DNA from: Lasiosphaeris hirsuta
Lineage: Eukaryota > Ascomycota > Sordariomycetes > Sordariales > Lasiosphaeriaceae
Reading direction: 5' to 3'
Length of the DNA stretch: 64,000 bases
Assembly (NCBI GenBank): GCA_030549175.1
Contig: JAUKUA010000004.1
Location: forward strand, 2,914,001 to 2,978,000
Part shown: positions 20,107 through 48,455 of the stretch, piece by piece
How positions within the stretch are numbered: the first letter of the stretch is position 1
Layout: each line of letters starts with the position of its first letter
The notes under the pieces: model-generated
Database searches by the model: none
What the model was told of the DNA's origin: nothing
Seen by the model: only the letters and a program-made list of their open reading frames with translations
Made by a program: the position numbers and the translations under genes

Positions 20107-20547
20107 GGTTTGCATTCGGGGTACTATAGACCTGGCTACATGGTTAGGCGTTTGCATTCTTAAGGGCATTGTTGGCGGCATTATCTTGTTTGGCGTGGAT
20201 TTTAATTTGTTGGAATAGACTTGGGAAGGACAGAGCCATAGATATCAACTTGGTTGCATCTTTGAGGTTTCAGAATTGGAGCTGTGATGGCGGGGTGACG
20301 GGGTACTAGGTAGTTAATGCGGATGCTGCGGGAAGGGGAAGAGAAGCGACCCAGTGCACAGCGTGCAGTCTCCCACCTGCCAATCGGCACTGTCTGATCT
20401 TCAGCTCCCGCCCCAGGTCGGCTCGAGCTCTGGGTGAAATTTGCTAGTTCCCAGCTTCATCCCACCGTCACGAAAACCCCTCCCCACACTCATTCCTCTC
20501 CCCTCGAGCCATTGACTACCGGCTCGGTCGAGCACCTGTTGCCCACC
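20107..20547. other. Intergenic / promoter of dihydroorotate dehydrogenase
   Basis: 440 bp; the frame of the next gene is open upstream to an ATG at 20434, but that extension lacks a good start context. Confidence 0.5.
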
Positions 20548-22014
20548 ATGGCGGCTCCCTACCTTCGAGCTCGACACGCCCTGTTGTCGACCTCGTTGCG
20601 GCCTCTTACGACCCCGCGACTGGCGACTGGCGGCGTCCAGTTCCTGCTAGGCACTATTGCGCACCGCCCCGCCTCGACGAATGCTTCACCCGGCGGCTCG
20701 TCACGCTTCAGGATCTTGGCCGTCAGCACCTCCCTAGCCGCCACCCTCCTCCTCACCTACTACTACATCACCGACACCCGCGCCTCGATCCACCGCTGGC
20801 TGATCCCGCCTGTCCTGCGCCTCATCTTCCCCGACGCCGAGGACGCGCACCACGCCGGCACCGTGGCCCTGCGCAACCTCTACTCGCTGGGACTGCACCC
20901 ACGCGAGCGGACCTCGGTGCTGACCCCGCAGTCCCCCGACGCCGCCAACCCGCTGTCGGTCACCGTCTTCGGCACCCGGTTGACAAACCCGATCGGCATC
21001 TCGGCCGGCCTCGACAAGGACGCCGAGATTCCCGACGCGCTGTTCGCGCTGGGCCCGGCCGTCGTCGAGGTCGGGGGGTGCACGCCACTGCCGCAGGAGG
21101 GCAACCCCCGCCCGCGCGTCTTCCGGGTCCCCGCGGTCGAGGGCATGGTGAACCGCTACGGGCTCAATTCCAAGGGTGCGGACGCCATGGCGGCGCGGCT
21201 GCGGGGCCGGGTCAGGCGGTTCGCGCGAGGCCTGGGGCTCAGCGAGAGCGAGATGCTGGACGGCGAGGCGCTGGATGTGTCGCCGGGCAGCCTGCAGCCG
21301 GGCCGGCTGCTGCTCGTGCAGATGGCCAAGAACAAGGGGACCGATGGCGGGGATGTCGAGGCTGTCGCTCGCGACTACGTCACGTGTGTCAACCGGCTGG
21401 CGCCGTATGCGGACGTGCTGGTCGTCAATGTCAGCAGCCCCAATACCCCGGGGCTGCGGGACTTGCAGGCTACGGGACCGCTGACGCAGATTTTGGGAGC
21501 CGTGGTGGACGAGGCCAGGCGCGCCGGCCGCAAGGTCAAGCCGAAGGTTATGGTTAAGGTGTCGCCGGATGAGGATGATGATGCCCAGATGGAGGGGGTG
21601 GTGCAGGCGGTGTGGATGAGCGGTGTAGATGGTGTCATTGTGGGCAACACGACTAAGAAAAGGGCTGGGCTGGTCCCGCAGGGCGTGCGGATGAGCGCCA
21701 GGGAGCAGAGGGCGCTGATGGAGGAGGGTGGGTTCTCAGGTCCGGCGCAGTTCGACCAGACATTGAAGCTAGTTGCCAAGTATCGCAAACTGCTCGACAG
21801 CTACGCCCTGCAGTCATGGCACGAGGGAGAGCCCGAGGCCCAGAAGATCGTCTTTGCGACGGGCGGCATCACCACTGGCGAGCAGGCACTCAAGGTGCTC
21901 AATGCAGGCGCCAGCGTGGCCATGGTTTATACGGGGCTGGTCTACAACGGGTCTGGTTTGATCACGAGGATGAAGAGCGAGATGGCACAGGAGCTCGCGA
22001 AGAAGACGGAATAA
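20548..22014 (+). CDS. Dihydroorotate dehydrogenase (quinone), class 2, mitochondrial
   Basis: Single exon, 488 residues from the ATG at 20548 (CCCACCATGG context; an in-frame ATG at 20434 would add 38 residues). It oxidises dihydroorotate to orotate with ubiquinone, the fourth step of pyrimidine synthesis, at the inner mitochondrial membrane. The mitochondrial presequence (about 1-50) is followed by one anchor helix (ILAVSTSLAATLLLTYYYIT, about 56-75), as in class 2 enzymes. Core motifs: NPIGISAGLDKDAEIPDAL, VEVGGCTPLPQEGNPRPRVF, NRYGLNSKG, the active-site loop NVSSPNTPGLRDLQ (second Ser, about 297, being the class 2 base), and VFATGGITTGEQALKVLNAGAS for the phosphate of FMN. The enzyme appears complete. 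An insert around residues 215-265 carries extra charged sequence, common in fungal forms. Confidence 0.95.
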   Translation: MAAPYLRARHALLSTSLRPLTTPRLATGGVQFLLGTIAHRPASTNASPGGSSRFRILAVSTSLAATLLLTYYYITDTRASIHRWLIPPVLRLIFPDAEDAHHAGTVALRNLYSLGLHPRERTSVLTPQSPDAANPLSVTVFGTRLTNPIGISAGLDKDAEIPDALFALGPAVVEVGGCTPLPQEGNPRPRVFRVPAVEGMVNRYGLNSKGADAMAARLRGRVRRFARGLGLSESEMLDGEALDVSPGSLQPGRLLLVQMAKNKGTDGGDVEAVARDYVTCVNRLAPYADVLVVNVSSPNTPGLRDLQATGPLTQILGAVVDEARRAGRKVKPKVMVKVSPDEDDDAQMEGVVQAVWMSGVDGVIVGNTTKKRAGLVPQGVRMSAREQRALMEEGGFSGPAQFDQTLKLVAKYRKLLDSYALQSWHEGEPEAQKIVFATGGITTGEQALKVLNAGASVAMVYTGLVYNGSGLITRMKSEMAQELAKKTE

Positions 22015-22774: not shown

Positions 22775-24729
22775 ATGGATCTTGCCGGCATCGCCAGGCT
22801 TAGCGACTCCCTCGCCACCACCATCGCCGCACTGCAGGTCCTCTGCGAGGACGAATGGAGCGATCCCGCCCTCGCCGTGACCGTCTCGAGGCTCACCGCG
22901 GGCCTGCGCGCCGCCCAGAGCACCGTTGCCGATTTGCGCCGGGGTTGGGATGAGTCCCAGACTAGTGATAATACAAAATTCATCCCGCTGTTTTACGACA
23001 GCTTGGGTGTCTGCACGACCAGCTGTGCCACCCTCGTCGGCAAGGTCGACGGCGTGCTTGCCGTCTGGGACGCGCGGGAGGGCAGCGACGGAAGCGATGG
23101 GGACTCGCTGGCTGGGCCTAACACCTTTCGGAAACCGTCACCGAAGCGGAGACCCGACGAGAGAGCGAATCAGTTCTTGGGCTTCGATGGTGTTGTTGAG
23201 CTGCTGGACGACGGTCTGAAGGTGCTCTTGAAAGCGAAGTCCCTGTAAGTTTTTTTTTTTTTTTTTTTTTTTTTTGCCCTTCAATTTTCAGTGTGGTATT
23301 GACCTTGTGCCTACTAGGAGCTCTTTGGCAGATCAGCAGGTGCTGCTGGAAAGCAGTGTATCTCGCGAAATCTTTCAGCAGCTCGAGCGAGGCGAGCTCG
23401 ACATCACAACCAAGAGAACCCGGAACCGCCGATCCTGGACTTTGGTACGCCCACCTTCTCGACTATCCAGACTGCTTGGTGGCGAGACTGCCAATCGCCC
23501 TCGGGCAAAGTCCCCTAAGCCTTTGATTTCAAGGGCCAAGACTTGGCCACTACTGAAGCGGAAAGAGAAATTGGAGCTTGATGGAGCTGCTCAAGCGGCG
23601 GTAGAAGCCCGCATGAGGTCAGCTCGCATCGATTTGGAGCTTGTGGCCGATTTTCGTACCAAGAGGAAGTGTTCCGTCTTGTTCGCCTCGGGGGCACACG
23701 AAGTCAAGATGATGCTTTCAGACAATATCGCATCGTCGAGCGAAAGCCAGGGCCTGGAGACAGAACTGGACTTGTCGAGCGCGGTAAATTCTGTCAGAAA
23801 GCACATCCTGCTCGAGTGCAGAAAAATGCTCGAGGCTACACTGGACTCAGAAGTTGAGCCCTCTGTTCTCGGCGAAGACGAGTCGGCGGTGGTTAACGGC
23901 CTCATCGAACTAATGAGGGATAAGCATGCATCCCTTCAAAAGATTTCCCAGTCGCTCCAGGAGCTGTGGTCTTCCCCGACCTTTCGAGAAGCATGCGCAA
24001 AACGGGGGAGACCTGAGCCATTTGATAAGCTGTAAGTTCCGCCCCTGGAGAGCTGGCTAGGAGATGCCTCTACGACTAACACGAAAAATCAATTATAGAA
24101 TCATGGAGTCTGTGTGTCGCGCGGCGGCAAACGATTACGTCCCAACTGCGGTGGACCACCGCCGCTTTTTTATGAACAAGAGGTACCTTCCACACCACGG
24201 CACCTTTGACTTCATTTCCGACGCCATCTCGATCAGTGTCATCGACCCAGAATGCGTTCGGGGACACAAACAGCGGCACATGACGTACGAGCTGTACCAG
24301 GACGCAACGAGTGTCATAATTCCAATCGACATGGCACAGTACGACGAGACACCTCTCGAAGGTGGCGGGAAAACAAAGCTGGCCGAGGCGATTGAAGGTG
24401 TTTCCAACTTCAAGAGATACCACCGATCATCCAGCGGGCTCTCGGCGTCGATTATGGTCATCTTCCATAGCCTCGACGAGTTCAGGCGGAAGCTTGACTC
24501 GGAGGAATCGTCATTTTCAACCTTCTACCCCTCTTATACCGGAAAAGGTGGGCTGAAGGAAGCGACGGACTGTGTGCTTCTCACACTGCCCTGCTCCGAG
24601 GATGACCATATTTACGTGCACGGGGGAGAGTTGTGGGATGCGTCGACGGTGAGATTCATTCTCGCGTCTGTCAAAGATACGATGCTACATCGAGCATTCA
24701 TGCATGGAGGGGTTTTTGCCGTTTGCTAG
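22775..24729 (+). CDS. Degenerate heterotrimeric G-alpha-like protein with extra N-terminal domain (three exons)
   Basis: Model: exons 22775-23244, 23318-24031 and 24099-24729; introns of 73 nt (26-T tract) and 67 nt; 604 residues. Residues 1-156 form a separate helical region (MDLAGIARLSDSLATTIAAL) like fungal N-terminal adaptor regions of signalling proteins. From about 250 the order of elements follows a G-alpha subunit. First comes a helix plus strand, SARIDLELVADFRTKRKCSV, where the P-loop should be. Then the helical-domain phrase LWSSPTFREACAKRG, then CRAAANDYVPTAVD (G-alpha: RIAAPDYxPTxxD). YELYQDATSVIIPIDMAQYD matches the strand after switch II, then FYPSYTGKGGLKEATDCV, and VRFILASVKDTMLHRAFMHG at the end. 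All nucleotide motifs are lost: ASGAHEVKM (280-288) for GxxxxGK[ST], DPECVRG (444) for DxGGQ, FHSLDE (517) for NKxD, and GGELWD (570-575) for TCAT. GTP binding is therefore unlikely. The fold assignment is by eye. Confidence 0.75.
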
Positions 24730-24863: not shown

Positions 24864-25908
24864 TCAGGCTAGGCGCGGCATTATGTTAGCCATGAGTCCC
24901 GACGCGAACTCGGGAATGTCCTCCACCAGACTCTCAAACTCGGTAGGGAAATGCTTCATCAGATCTTCCGCAATGCAAGCGCAGTAGGTTGACACAAGCT
25001 TTCGTAGCTTGTCCTTGGACATCGTATTGTTCCACACATAGTTGACCAGCTTTGGAATGGCGTCTAGGCGAACCGGGTGCATGACAAAGTGTTGCAGGGT
25101 GACGTGGAGTTTGTACGAGGCGAGTTGCCGCAGTAGAGCGATGTTGTACCGGTCGCCCAAGACGTAGAGGCCGGCGTGGCAGAGCATGATTCCCGAGTAG
25201 TCCTCACTGCTCGTGTTTGGCTCGGGCTTGTGGGCGGCTATGTATTTGTCTTGGGGTGGAGGGTAGTCGGTGCTGTCGACAAATGCCCTCATGCTCGCGA
25301 TTTTCTTGTCCATCTTGACTGTATTCATTCCGCAATAATCGCAATAGTGCGCCATCTGGGCCGGGCTCTCTTTTGATCGTCCCCAATCGTCCTGCGATTG
25401 CCTAAGACACACCCCTGGCCAAGAAACTAGAGAAAAAGGACCAGGGGGCTCTGTGGTGATTTTTTTGCCCTTTTTTTTGGACTTTGCCATAGTAGGGAAA
25501 GGTTCTATTATCGACTGGTCGTCAACCTGAATGGTCACAGTCTGCCCATCTGTTGATTCGTCGGGGATAACAACTGGATGAGGATCCGTGTAATTGCCCG
25601 AGTACGCCCACTGACAGAACCGAACAAATGTGCCCACGTCAACGTCTGACCATTCGACTTCCTGTTGGGCGGCCTCTTTCATATGCCCATTGACCAGAAC
25701 GTTGAGGGGCTCGGATTGCTGGGAGAGCAAGCTGCTGTGCATGTAGAACTCCTTCTTGTCGGGCCCGACAACAAGCTTGAACGGCTTCGAGGTCATCAAG
25801 CTGCAGCAGCCATGATGAGGGTCGTGTTAGTTTTGTGCAGAAAACGGCAGATGGCAATCGAGATGCATCCTACCTTTCATAGTCAAGTTTGCCATCGGCC
25901 GTCGCCAT
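24864..25908 (-). CDS. BTB/POZ-domain protein (two exons)
   Basis: Model: exon 1 25908-25874, intron 25873-25801 (73 nt, GTAGGA, CAG), exon 2 25800-24864; 323 residues. The BTB domain occupies about 10-120: LDYESLMTSKPFKLVVGPDK, then FYMHSSLLSQQSEPLNVLVN (usual form: VHKxxLxxxSxYF), then VEWSDVDVGTFVRFCQWAYSG. The C-terminal half, including ALLRQLASYKLHVTLQHF, is helical as in other fungal single-BTB proteins. BTB domains dimerise and can recruit Cullin-3, but no substrate-binding module is visible. It converges on the pseudo-G-alpha gene with only 134 bp between the stops. Confidence 0.88.
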
Positions 25909-42598: not shown

Positions 42599-43150
42599 TG
42601 GAATGACAGCCGATGCTTTTGGGGTTTCTGGAAGGGGAAGCTTAGTCACTTGGCGAAACAGGTTTTGTCTTTAGCGTTCGTAGTAAGAAATAATAACTAC
42701 ACATGGCACTTCCATTGACGCTACCGTATGGACAACACAGACCGCCGAGTCCGCGGTGATCAGGCAGGCAGCACATTGCCAACGTGGGCGCATTTTAGAT
42801 TTTTGACAATGCTATGTCGAGTGAAATCGTGAAAAGGAACTGTCTTTGCTCCGACGTTGGCTCCACGAGCTGTATATGCGTCTATCCAAATAATAACTAT
42901 CGGGGCATGCAACAACCAATCAATCGCTCAAGCTGAGCTGGGCCACCCGCAGTTTCCGCAGCAACCACCCCACCATGTTTTGCCAACAGCGAGCGACGCC
43001 AGTCTCCAAAATGCGCATCGAAAATTCGCCATTGACTATCGCCCCAAAGCCTAGAGAGCCGCATTCGCCGTACCACTTCACATTCCGGCACTGCAAACCA
43101 CGCAACCGCCGACACAGCCCCGAACTACATACAGCACACAGGCTGCTACA
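42599..43150. other. Intergenic region, NUF2 promoter
   Basis: 552 bp; no gene. The NUF2 5' flank includes CACATTCCGGCACTGCAAACC. Confidence 0.5.
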
Positions 43151-44606
43151 ATGGCGTTCAACCCGCGAATGTCGATCCTGCCGCCCGTGCAGCAGACGCG
43201 GACGCGCAAGAAGGAGGAGGAAGCCGCCTACGCCAACATGCGCCTGCCAGACCGCGAGATTGTCGGGTGCATCAACGAGCTGGGCATCCCATTTACCATC
43301 GCCGACCTGCAGAAGCCCAACCCGATCCAGGTCCAGATGATCTTTGAGTGGTTTGGCGAGCTGCTGATGAACAAGACGCGGGTGACGGTCGAGCCGGCGA
43401 TGAAGGCGGCGGTCGAGGACGCCTACGGCAGCGGGGACGGGATGGGGGACGCGCTGATGCCGGCCGACACGCGCAACCTGATGGGCTTCTACGCGTCGCT
43501 GCGGCACCTGATGCTCGACTGCGGCGTCCAGGATTTCAACTTTGTGGACCTGCACAAGCCGTCGCACGACCGGCTGGTCAAGATCTTCAGCTACGTCATC
43601 AACTTTGTGCGCTTCCGCGAGAGCCAGACGAGCGTCATCGACGAGCACTGCAACCGGGCCGAGAGCACCAAGACGCGCATCGAGCAGCTCTACGCCGAGA
43701 ACCAGAACATGGAGGCCCAGCTCGACGACATGCACGCCAACCGCCGCCAGATGGAGGCGCTCGTGGCCGAGAAGACGAAGCGCAACGAGGACCTCAAGAA
43801 GCGCCTGCTCGAGCTGCGCCGCAACCAGGAGCGCGTGGCCGCCCGCCTCGAGGAGGCCAAGACCAAGAAGGGCGAGCTGGCCGCCGAGCTCGAAGACAAG
43901 ACGGCCGCCAAGCTGGCGCTCAAGCAGGAGAGCGCCAAGCTGCGGCCGTACGTGCTGCAGAGCCCGTCGGCGCTGCAGGCGTCCCTGACGGAGCTGAGCA
44001 ACACGCTCAACGCGGACAAGTCGCACATCGACTCGCTGGACCGGCGGGCGCGCGCGCTGCAGACGTCGACCGACTCGTTTGCCGTCGTGTCGACCGACGT
44101 GGCCTCGTGCATCAAGTTGCTGGATGAGATCTCGATCGAGCTGGCCAAGGAGGAGGAGGAGAACGCCAAGAATGCGAAGCAACGCGATGCGCTTACGGAG
44201 CGCGGCGCTAATGTGCGCGAGGTCGAGCGGACGGAAGCCCTGCTGCAGCGGCAGCTGTCAAAGTGGGCGGAGCGTACCGAGACACTGCGCGCCCAGAGCC
44301 AGGAGAAGGCGGCGAGGGCAAAGGAGAAGATGGAGGAGCTGAGGGCGGTGCACAAGAAGCTGACTGAGGAGCGGGGTGATAAGGGCAAGGACATTGAGAG
44401 GAGGAGAGTTCGAATTGAGCAGACGGAGAAGAAGGTATGCGCTGATAACTCTTTGGTGTCTGTTGATGCGGTTGCTAACAGTGTGGTGCTAGATGCTGGA
44501 TCTCAAGGAGAACATCGAGAATGAGGTGCATGCGGCATATGATGAGTATCTCAAGATGGAGTCGCACATCAAACTCTACATTACAGAGATGGAGCAGGCC
44601 ATCTAA
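43151..44606 (+). CDS. NUF2: Kinetochore protein NUF2 (two exons)
   Basis: Model: exon 1 43151-44434, intron 44435-44492 (58 nt; GTATGC, GCTAAC, TAG), exon 2 44493-44606; 465 residues. Nuf2 pairs with Ndc80 in the outer-kinetochore Ndc80 complex that binds microtubules. The N-terminus has a calponin-homology-type head: [20 protein letters not shown] and [11 protein letters not shown], then [19 protein letters not shown] and [19 protein letters not shown]. From about 150 to the end it is coiled coil (for example [20 protein letters not shown]). The second exon restores the usual end ([20 protein letters not shown]). Length matches the family (about 450-470). Convergent with the next gene. Confidence 0.97.
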
Positions 44607-45985: not shown

Positions 45986-48455
45986 ATGGAGTCAATAGCC
46001 AGGATATCGAGTCTGCTCGAGAGCGGTGGGTGCCCAACTGCCCCTAGATTTCCCGTGTCCCCTGCGACGCCGCTGGACACCGCTGACTTTCTCCCTGACA
46101 GCTCGGGAGCTCACACTCGATGCTGCCTCGGCCGCCGCCCGAAACTCGCGAAGCTCAACCAAGCCCCTGGATAGAGCCCAGATCAAGAAGCTTCTCGACA
46201 GCCGCAATGAGCGTGAGGTGCTTGACGGGCTGCGGCGCGTCATCATGGTGCGTCAAGCCTCTCCTGGCATTCCTTTTTGTCGCCGACGCTGACCCTGCCG
46301 TCTCTAGATGATGTACCGGTCGCAAAAGACCCTGCCCCTATTCTCTTCGGTCGTCAAGAATGTCGCCTCCCCGAGCCTCGAGATCAAGAAGCTGGTCTAC
46401 ATCTACCTCATCCACCATGCCGAGCAGGAGCCCGACCTCGCCCTCCTCTCCATCAACACCATCCAAAAGTCGCTCTCCGACCCGAACCCACAGGTGCGCG
46501 CCCTCGCGCTGCGGACCATGTCCGGCATCCGAGTCCCGGTTATTAGTCAGATCGTGTCGCTGGCCATCCGCAAGGGTGCGGGCGATATGAGCTCGCACGT
46601 TCGGCGTGCCGCTGCTTTGGCCATTCCCAAGTGCTACCGGCTCGACCCTTCCCAGCTGCCCCAGCTACTCGAGTACCTCTCGACGCTCCTCGGCGATAAG
46701 CAATACTATGTCGCCGGCGCTGCTGTCACGGCCTTTTTGGAAGTTTGCCCCGAGAGGTTAGATCTAATACACAAGCATTATCGTGGACTGGTCAAGATGA
46801 TCGTGGACATGGATGAGTGGAGCCAGCTTGCGACGCTGCGGCTGATGGCTATTTACGCCCGGAGGTGCTTTCCGAGGCGAACCAAGACGGTTAGAAGCAG
46901 TGACAAGACTGGTAATCTCGAAAATTTCTACGGCGACGGGGCAGACGCCAGCTCTGAAGGCGAGCAGGTGCTTGTCGTCGACCCGGACCTGGAACTGCTC
47001 CTCAGCAGCATCAAGCCCCTGCTTCAGTCCCGCAACTCGGCCGTCGTGGTGGCTGTCGCGCGGTGCTACTCTGCCGTTGGCACTCCTGCATATGTCCAAA
47101 CTTCCATTGGGCCACTCATAGCCCTGCTCCGTGGCGCCCAAGACATTGAGCAGATCGCCCTCTTCAACATTGTTTCGATTTGTCTCAGCCGTCCTGCCGA
47201 TTTTGTCAGATACGCCACACACTTCCTCGTCCGCGCAACTGATGCTCAGCCCGTGTGGGAGCTCAAGCTTGAGATTCTCACGCTCATCTTCCCGCACTCA
47301 CCGCCACACATAAAAAGCCTTGTCCTCAACGAGTTGGAGCACTTCAGCAGAGGATCCGACAAGGCCCTCGTTAGGGAAGCAGTAAGGGCTATTGGACGTT
47401 GCGCACAAACCGACACAGCCGCCTCGCAGAGGTGTCTGCGGTTGCTGCTTGGCCAAATCACTAGTCTGGACGGAACGTTGGCCGCCGAGAGCCTTACCGT
47501 TATTCGACATCTCATCCAACAAGACCCAGCAGCACACGTCGCGACCGTTGTCAGACTGGCAAAAAACCTTGACTCGGCAACAGATCCGCAGGCTCGTGCC
47601 ACCATCATCTGGCTGGTAGGAGAGTTCTCGGGCCTCAACGGCGAAGACAACATCGCCGCCGACGTGTTGCGCATCCTCCTCAAAGACTTCGCCTCCGAGT
47701 CTGAGATTGCGAAGCGTCAGATTGTTCTCCTCGGCGCCAAGGTCTATCTCCACTACGTCAACCGCCAGATTGAGGAGTCCCAAGGCGGCCCCGAAGGGGA
47801 GCCGGGACCCGCTCCTGCCCTGCTCGAAGACGACGACCACGCTGTTGCCAAGCTCTGGCGCTACGTTCTGTTGCTAGTAAGATACGACACATCGTACGAC
47901 CTGCGTGATCGCACCCGCCTGTACAAGGCGCTTCTTAGTGTCCCACAGCTTGCAACCCTGATGCTCCTCGCACCGAAGCCTGCACCGCAAGCTCCAAGCC
48001 CGTCCGAGACGAGGAAGGGATACACCCTCGGCTCAGCAGCGCTAGTGCTTGCGGGCGGGGGTGGCGTGCATGGGCTCAGGGGGTACGAAGACTTGCCCGA
48101 GTGGGTGCAGCCCGGAAGGGAGCCGGACCCGGCCCTGAGGGATAGCGATGTCCCGGTAGGAAGCAGGTATAGCGAGAAGCGGGTCGTTCCAGCGGCCGAA
48201 GCCTTGGACGCTGCGGTGAAGGCGGCGCCGACGGCGGGCAGGTCAACCAATGGGCTCGGCGCAGCCGTTGGAGGGAAGACGCTGGATGATTGGTTGGCTG
48301 AGGACGAAGGTGGAGATGAAGAGGAGAGTGAGGAGGAAGAAGAGGACGACGATGAAGAAGAAGAAGAGGATGATGGCGAAGAGGAGGAAGAGTTTGAAGA
48401 GGAAGAGGAAGATGATGAAGAAGATAGGGGGGAAAGTGGTAGGCTTATTGCATAG
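45986..48455 (+). CDS. APL6: AP-3 adaptor complex beta subunit (three exons)
   Basis: Model: exons 45986-46025, 46102-46247 and 46308-48455; introns of 76 and 60 nt; 777 residues. AP-3 beta (Apl6) sorts cargo from Golgi/endosome to the vacuole. The adaptin trunk is clear: SSTKPLDRAQIKKLLDSRNE and REVLDGLRRVI, then MMYRSQKTLPLFSSVVKNVA (exon 3 start) and VRALALRTMSGIRVPVI, followed by HEAT-type repeats to about residue 600. The C-terminus is short and ends in an acidic tract of Asp/Glu (about 722-770), the counterpart of the phosphorylated hinge; the ear domain found in animals is absent, as in other fungi. Exon 2 ends at ATG and exon 3 begins ATGATG, giving three Met in a row; the site could shift by one codon. 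Confidence 0.95.

Follow-up and report, generated by a model that had tools for sequence, protein, structure and literature searches.

The window, a stretch of 64,000 nucleotides from contig JAUKUA010000004.1 of the sordarialean ascomycete Lasiosphaeris hirsuta (NCBI family Lasiosphaeriaceae), carries at 22775..24729 on the forward strand a gene of three exons and two introns, for which a GT...AG splice model yields 604 codons (Table 1). The spliced product is identical to the deposited L. hirsuta protein B0H67DRAFT_610283 (604 aa), which is annotated as "hypothetical" only, with a precomputed G-alpha domain. Thus, the intact frame and the two clean introns of the original prediction were confirmed. 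Three alternative open splice choices differ at intron 1 only, by 1–3 residues; a long T run is located immediately 3' of the donor site of this intron. Searches of the L. hirsuta genome with the whole protein, the Immersiella relative described below and the N-terminal 251 residues returned this gene at high score and gave no second copy. Among the best candidates scored, the other matches within the genome were weak and either fell on canonical G-alpha loci or reached E = 0.14, and the gene appears to be single-copy in L. hirsuta. For the neighbourhood, 10 of the 92 listed open frames of at least 150 aa were scanned with Pfam. A dihydroorotate dehydrogenase frame (20398–22011, +; PF01180, 196.6 bits) lies directly upstream, and a BTB/POZ-domain frame (24867–25826, −; PF00651, 25.9 bits, cut-off 20.5) follows immediately downstream in convergent orientation. 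Frames for a Nuf2 kinetochore protein and an adaptin N-terminal region (43055–44521 and 46308–48452, both +) are ordinary housekeeping neighbours.

Table 1. Features of the L. hirsuta gene in coordinates of the window.
Feature	Position	Strand	Description
Exon 1	22775..23244	+	Start codon and N-terminal region, residues 1–156 plus two bases
Intron 1 (GTAAGT...TAG, T-rich)	23245..23317	+	Splice model; product matches the deposited protein
Exon 2	23318..24031	+	Linker with three family-wide motifs, alphaN, beta1/P-loop position, most of the helical domain
Intron 2, phase 2	24032..24098	+	Position and phase as in all three canonical G-alpha genes
Exon 3	24099..24729	+	Remaining helical domain, Ras-like half, beta2 to alpha5, stop
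AlphaN-like helix, residues 251–272	23598..23663	+	12/22 invariant in three members
P-loop position, residues 280–288	23685..23711	+	ASGAHEVKM replacing GSGESGKST (alignment)
Switch I position, residues 414–430	24154..24204	+	RxKTTG lost (alignment)
DVGGQ/switch II position, residues 444–463	24244..24303	+	First D alone kept; canonical Trp lost
NKxD position, residues 518–521	24466..24477	+	HSLD (alignment)
TCAT position, residues 571–574	24625..24636	+	GELW (alignment)
Alpha5 helix, residues 577–594	24643..24696	+	16/18 invariant; best window of the G-alpha part

A word-based protein search, by which remote relatives may be missed, yielded three family members among 5.8 billion proteins, namely those of L. 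hirsuta, Lasiosphaeria hispida and Immersiella caudata. The L. hispida protein is 81% identical to that of L. hirsuta with one single-residue gap, the I. caudata protein 34%, and all three frames are full-length (603–611 residues). NCBI files the three species under Lasiosphaeriaceae; in its available text, PMC7565071 lists Lasiosphaeris hispida beside L. hirsuta and places Immersiella in the Schizotheciaceae. We infer that the L. hirsuta and L. hispida members are congeneric and that the family spans two lineages of the Sordariales, whereby the three known sequences probably come from two genera.

The region from about residue 251 to residue 594 matches the Pfam G-alpha family (PF00503) with 61.1 bits against a cut-off of 48.8 (E = 1.3e-16), and the three members score 61.1, 62.3 and 50.0 bits, all above the cut-off. 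A phmmer search against the solved structures (PDB) gave a G-alpha match at E = 1e-7. With a profile built from the three members, G-alpha-i1 was matched at E = 3.1e-18, whereby positions 254–594 aligned onto G-alpha-i1 10–346 and the alignment spans alphaN, the P-loop position, the helical domain, the Ras-like half and alpha5 in this order; the alphaN helix is retained as VEARMRSARID (residues 252–262). An independent line of evidence for G-alpha ancestry is the position of intron 2. In each of the GNA-1, GNA-2 and GNA-3 genes of L. hirsuta, a phase-2 intron splits the codon located 12 residues ahead of the D/N of D/NYxP, and intron 2 splits the codon of residue 395, likewise in phase 2 and 12 residues ahead of the D in DYVP. 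The chance that a random intron matches one of the five intron sites of GNA-3 is about 0.005, which is a rough figure. Two fold models were of low confidence (mean pLDDT 41.5 and 37.2); for the first of these low-confidence models (pLDDT 41.5), 50 of the 50 Foldseek matches listed were G-alpha entries, and VIA-align matched it to G-alpha as well. The original prediction of a G-alpha ancestry is therefore borne out by Pfam, phmmer, the profile and the shared intron, but it had missed the origin from GNA-3.

In order to place the family among the G-alphas, the canonical L. hirsuta genes were spliced, that is C10 (ending with LRLCGLI), C8 (starting with MCFGGR) and C9 (starting with MGACMS and ending with LKDSGIL), the last of which was identified as gna-3 from the agreement of its ends with published primers. 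GNA-3 was the top BLAST match of all three members (E = 2.7e-23 to 1.6e-26), followed in the same comparison by GNA-1 (2.2e-14 to 5e-16) and GNA-2 (2.6e-5 to 1.2e-6). In a maximum-likelihood tree of the three members, the three canonical G-alphas of the same genome and two animal chains, the family joins GNA-3 with an SH-aLRT of 97.8 and a bootstrap of 98, and the grouping stays at 96/93 when alpha5 and the tail are left out. The AU test rejected the four alternative placements tested (p = 0.016–0.026); by the stricter SH test, three of the four are retained at p = 0.052. The family branch is very long (1.7), so the grouping might be a branch-length artefact. Overall, the family is only 20–28% identical to GNA-3. 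In the Immersiella member, alpha5 and the tail together read STVRFILAAVKETMLHRALVDSGMF and are identical to GNA-3 at 14 of 25 positions. These comparisons show an affinity to GNA-3, and the gene is best explained as a paralogue that has diverged from this group III G-alpha gene. Group III of the fungal G-alphas, to which Neurospora GNA-3 belongs, also includes MagA of Magnaporthe and GanB of Aspergillus. Unlike GNA-3, the family has lost the five nucleotide motifs, and its start is replaced by about 250 extra residues.

The motif positions were read from the alignment to GNA-3, and the sequences are given here in the order L. hirsuta, L. hispida and I. caudata. GSGESGKST (G1) is replaced by ASGAHEVKM, ASGAHEVKM and LVSRESKLL, RTKTTG of switch I by FMNKRY, FMNKRF and GKPG (gapped), DVGGQ (G3) by DPECV, DPKCV and DPSHL, NKVD (G4) by HSLD, HNLD and HHVK, where the sole match of HHVK falls on the variable place, and TQAT (G5) by GELW, GELW and GELS. 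Around switch I, L. hirsuta has DHRRFFMNKRYL in place of DVLRARTKTTGI. Thus, of GxGESGKST, RxKTTG, DVGGQ, NKxD and TCAT, 0–2 letters each are kept in every one of the three members. The substitutions which had been quoted for G1, G3, G4 and G5 from the L. hirsuta sequence are those seen in the alignment. The claim that every motif is lost applies to all five motifs in all three members, but not down to the single residue, since D444 of DVGGQ survives in three of three members and two of them also keep D521 of NKxD. K287 is perhaps located at or beside the P-loop Lys, a pairing that is uncertain due to a two-residue alignment gap in two members at G1. From the chemistry of G-alphas, a protein without these motifs should neither bind nor hydrolyse GTP. 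It would therefore be expected to be free of guanine nucleotide and fixed in a single state.

Conservation among the three members is unevenly distributed over the G-alpha part. The alpha5 helix, with 16 of 18 residues identical, ranks on top of the 337 windows of 18 residues and is equalled by none of them, and with so few variable positions both faces of the helix, and thus all of its sides, are held. Receptors and RIC8 read this helix in ordinary G-alphas. Between the canonical groups of the genome, alpha5 is identical at 8, 3 and 7 of 18 positions (rest of the protein 49, 42 and 50%), as compared to 15 of 18 shared by the L. hirsuta and Immersiella members (window shifted by one; rest 36%); this contrast sets orthologues against paralogues and is a hint, unlike a matched control such as an orthologous GNA-3 pair at equal distance. 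The conservation of alpha5 suggests a bound partner on top of core packing, whereby part of it has to be structural because the helix also packs against the core. For alphaN (residues 253–268), 11 of 16 positions are invariant, a value reached by 18 of 339 windows including alphaN itself. At the P-loop position 2 of 9 residues are invariant and at the NKxD position 2 of 6. The switch I position (9/17, a level that 38 of 338 windows reach) and the TCAT position (4/8) indicate that constraint extends beyond alphaN and alpha5. The switch II position is among the less conserved parts, with 4 of 20 residues invariant, and it is shortened in Immersiella. In ordinary G-alphas, alphaN and switch II touch G-beta-gamma, switch II being a main G-beta contact. 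With switch II residues lost, the evidence speaks against a contact to G-beta-gamma of the fully normal kind. The C-terminal tail, which in G-alphas enters the receptor, is DSGMF in Immersiella, near to the DSGIL of GNA-3, and HGGVFAVC in L. hirsuta.

About 250 residues stand in front of alphaN. The original prediction had described an extra domain of 156 residues; however, this figure marks the end of exon 1 and not the start of the G-alpha homology. No Pfam family scored above its cut-off within the N-terminal region, which was modelled as helices in the low-confidence fold models. Three short stretches recur in every one of the three members, namely LESSxSRxxFxxLE, WxxxxxPxRLxxLLG and TWPxL; they are encoded by exon 2 (from 23318) at residues 167–180, 197–211 and 228–236, and their surroundings are variable. 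These three linker motifs could be docking or phosphorylation sites, and the N-terminal region as a whole may provide targeting or partner sites. The first 250 residues contain 3, 4 and 4 scattered cysteines in the three members, and a Cys-rich cluster as in plant XLG is absent from this part of all of them. The proteins start with MDLA, MDLA and MDTT and so are without Gly2. In G-alphas, a Gly2 start goes along with myristoylation, which is not universal: GNA-1 starts with MGC and GNA-3 with MGA, and the canonical GNA-2 starts with MCF, likewise without Gly2.

Taken from its sequence, the conserved motif-less protein probably works as a partner-binding protein and not as a switch. Our preferred reading, which we hold tentatively and at somewhat less than an even chance, is that of a GNA-3-derived, nucleotide-free pseudo-G-alpha which keeps partner surfaces and acts on the GNA-3 branch, as a dominant-negative brake or an adaptor. 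Here, alpha5 would sit in the GNA-3 site of receptors, of the exchange factor RIC8 or of both, and alphaN would touch G-beta-gamma, both of which are committed guesses. The new region of about 250 residues, which replaces the usual start, might supply a second partner or address. The outcome would be a built-in brake or adaptor of the GNA-3 branch and a fungal counterpart of plant XLG. A competitor or adaptor within the GNA-3 branch is suggested because no stretch is better kept than alpha5 and no G-alpha compared is closer than GNA-3, and a classic trimer is less likely because switch II has drifted. As candidate partners, the L. hirsuta genome offers G-gamma at a single place, with two adjacent matches, and RGS proteins at five places. 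In Neurospora, RIC8 is described, in the available part of the source, as a GEF that acts on GNA-1 and GNA-3 and more strongly on GNA-3 (PMC3485287), and in the excerpted account of cellulase control GNB-1 antagonises GNA-3 (PMC9604755). The brake model is opposed by the few invariant residues of switch II and by the L. hirsuta tail, which is unlike that of GNA-3.

Precedents for such a protein exist to different degrees. Pseudo-GTPases such as Rnd, CENP-M and others keep the GTPase fold as a binding module after loss of the motifs; Rnd and CENP-M are small GTPases, whereas the fungal protein has the G-alpha helical domain and alphaN. The P-loop mutant G42R of G-alpha-i1 binds G-beta-gamma in both nucleotide states tested (PMC3285607). 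It resembles the fungal family in its altered P-loop; unlike the family, it carries a single change and still hydrolyses GTP (PMC3285607). According to the accessible text of PMC8584482, plant XLG proteins combine an N-terminal extension with degenerate motifs and bind G-beta-gamma independently of nucleotide, and motif deviation in G-alphas is also reported there from Dictyostelium and Naegleria. The original prediction knew of no function for a degenerate G-alpha, for which plant XLG, as described in that text, provides a precedent (PMC8584482). The fungal family likewise consists of an N-terminal extension and a degenerate G-alpha half. Nucleotide-free action has been shown or argued for plant XLG in the same text (PMC8584482), whereas for the fungal family it would follow from the motif loss. 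XLG proteins are there described as unique to plants and carry a Cys-rich N-terminal motif, which is not seen in the fungal family (PMC8584482). Since the fungal family joins GNA-3, in a tree whose other chains are canonical L. hirsuta and animal G-alphas, its origin would be independent of plant XLG, and we infer that the two are convergent. More tentatively still, and with some doubt, fungi may have gained their own extra-large nucleotide-free G-alpha independently of plants. As a GNA-3 paralogue without GTP binding but with alpha5 and alphaN retained, it would supply some Sordariales with a genomic dominant-negative in competition with GNA-3 over receptors, RIC8 or G-beta-gamma.

For Neurospora, three G-alphas are given in the available portion of PMC9604755, and for filamentous fungi three G-alpha groups in that of PMC8877820; across 222 fungal species the number of G-alphas varies considerably, as stated in the accessible text of PMC12842992. 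In the open-access literature surveyed, partly for other points, no degenerate fungal G-alpha was found, which is weak evidence of absence. A conserved motif-less extra G-alpha descended from one of the three would be, within the literature surveyed, the first counterpart of plant XLG from a fungus, and it would allow GTP-free G-alpha roles to be studied in relatives of Neurospora.

The chief rival to the brake or adaptor reading is a reuse of the fold. It might be that the nucleotide-free G-alpha fold serves as a scaffold for an unrelated partner outside G-protein signalling, and that alpha5 is bound by this new partner or by the N-terminal region. We consider this possible, if on balance doubtful. 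It is in line with the drift of both switch II and the receptor-entering tail, and with an N-terminal region for which the genome search gave no second copy and which has its three linker motifs common to all members. However, alpha5 and alphaN, which stand out by their conservation, are the parts through which ordinary G-alphas contact receptors and G-beta-gamma, respectively. It is less likely that the protein is an XLG-like, positively acting and nucleotide-independent alpha subunit of a second heterotrimer, with the N-terminal region as signal output. The layout, as known for plant XLG from the available text of PMC8584482, and the kept alphaN would fit, but switch II is lost and the few cysteines of the first 250 residues form no Cys-rich cluster. 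Very unlikely is an unconventional nucleotide binding, where a ligand is held in a rebuilt pocket: an invariant Lys located at the P-loop Lys position or next to it, together with the invariant Asp opening DVGGQ, would speak for it, whereas the GESGKST pattern, RxKTTG, GGQ, the NK of NKxD and the TCAT residues are absent in all three members.

That the gene is a decaying pseudogene or a gene-model artefact, as its fast divergence from Immersiella could suggest, is disfavoured to the point of being negligible, given the three full-length frames, the one single-residue gap between the closest two, the lack of the about five stops expected under drift, and a decayed-looking G-alpha fragment of the same genome which does carry in-frame stops. 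The drift estimate comes from 1000 simulations, in which the L. hirsuta coding sequence was let drift neutrally to 81% protein identity; 5.0 stops were expected, and zero stops occurred in 0.4% of the runs. The expected number of frameshifts is 6–18, assuming 5–15 indels per 100 substitutions. Neither the L. hispida nor the I. caudata gene shows a frame break, and the earlier statement that this is not a simple pseudogene agrees with the three intact frames and the missing stops. The third-position GC content is 0.66, as compared to 0.69–0.71 in the canonical genes. The G-alpha fragment mentioned above lies on contig 11 (251051–251302), contains two in-frame TGA codons and is apparently decayed, in contrast to the intact gene; beside it, inspection by eye showed further G-alpha-like pieces in both of the other frames.
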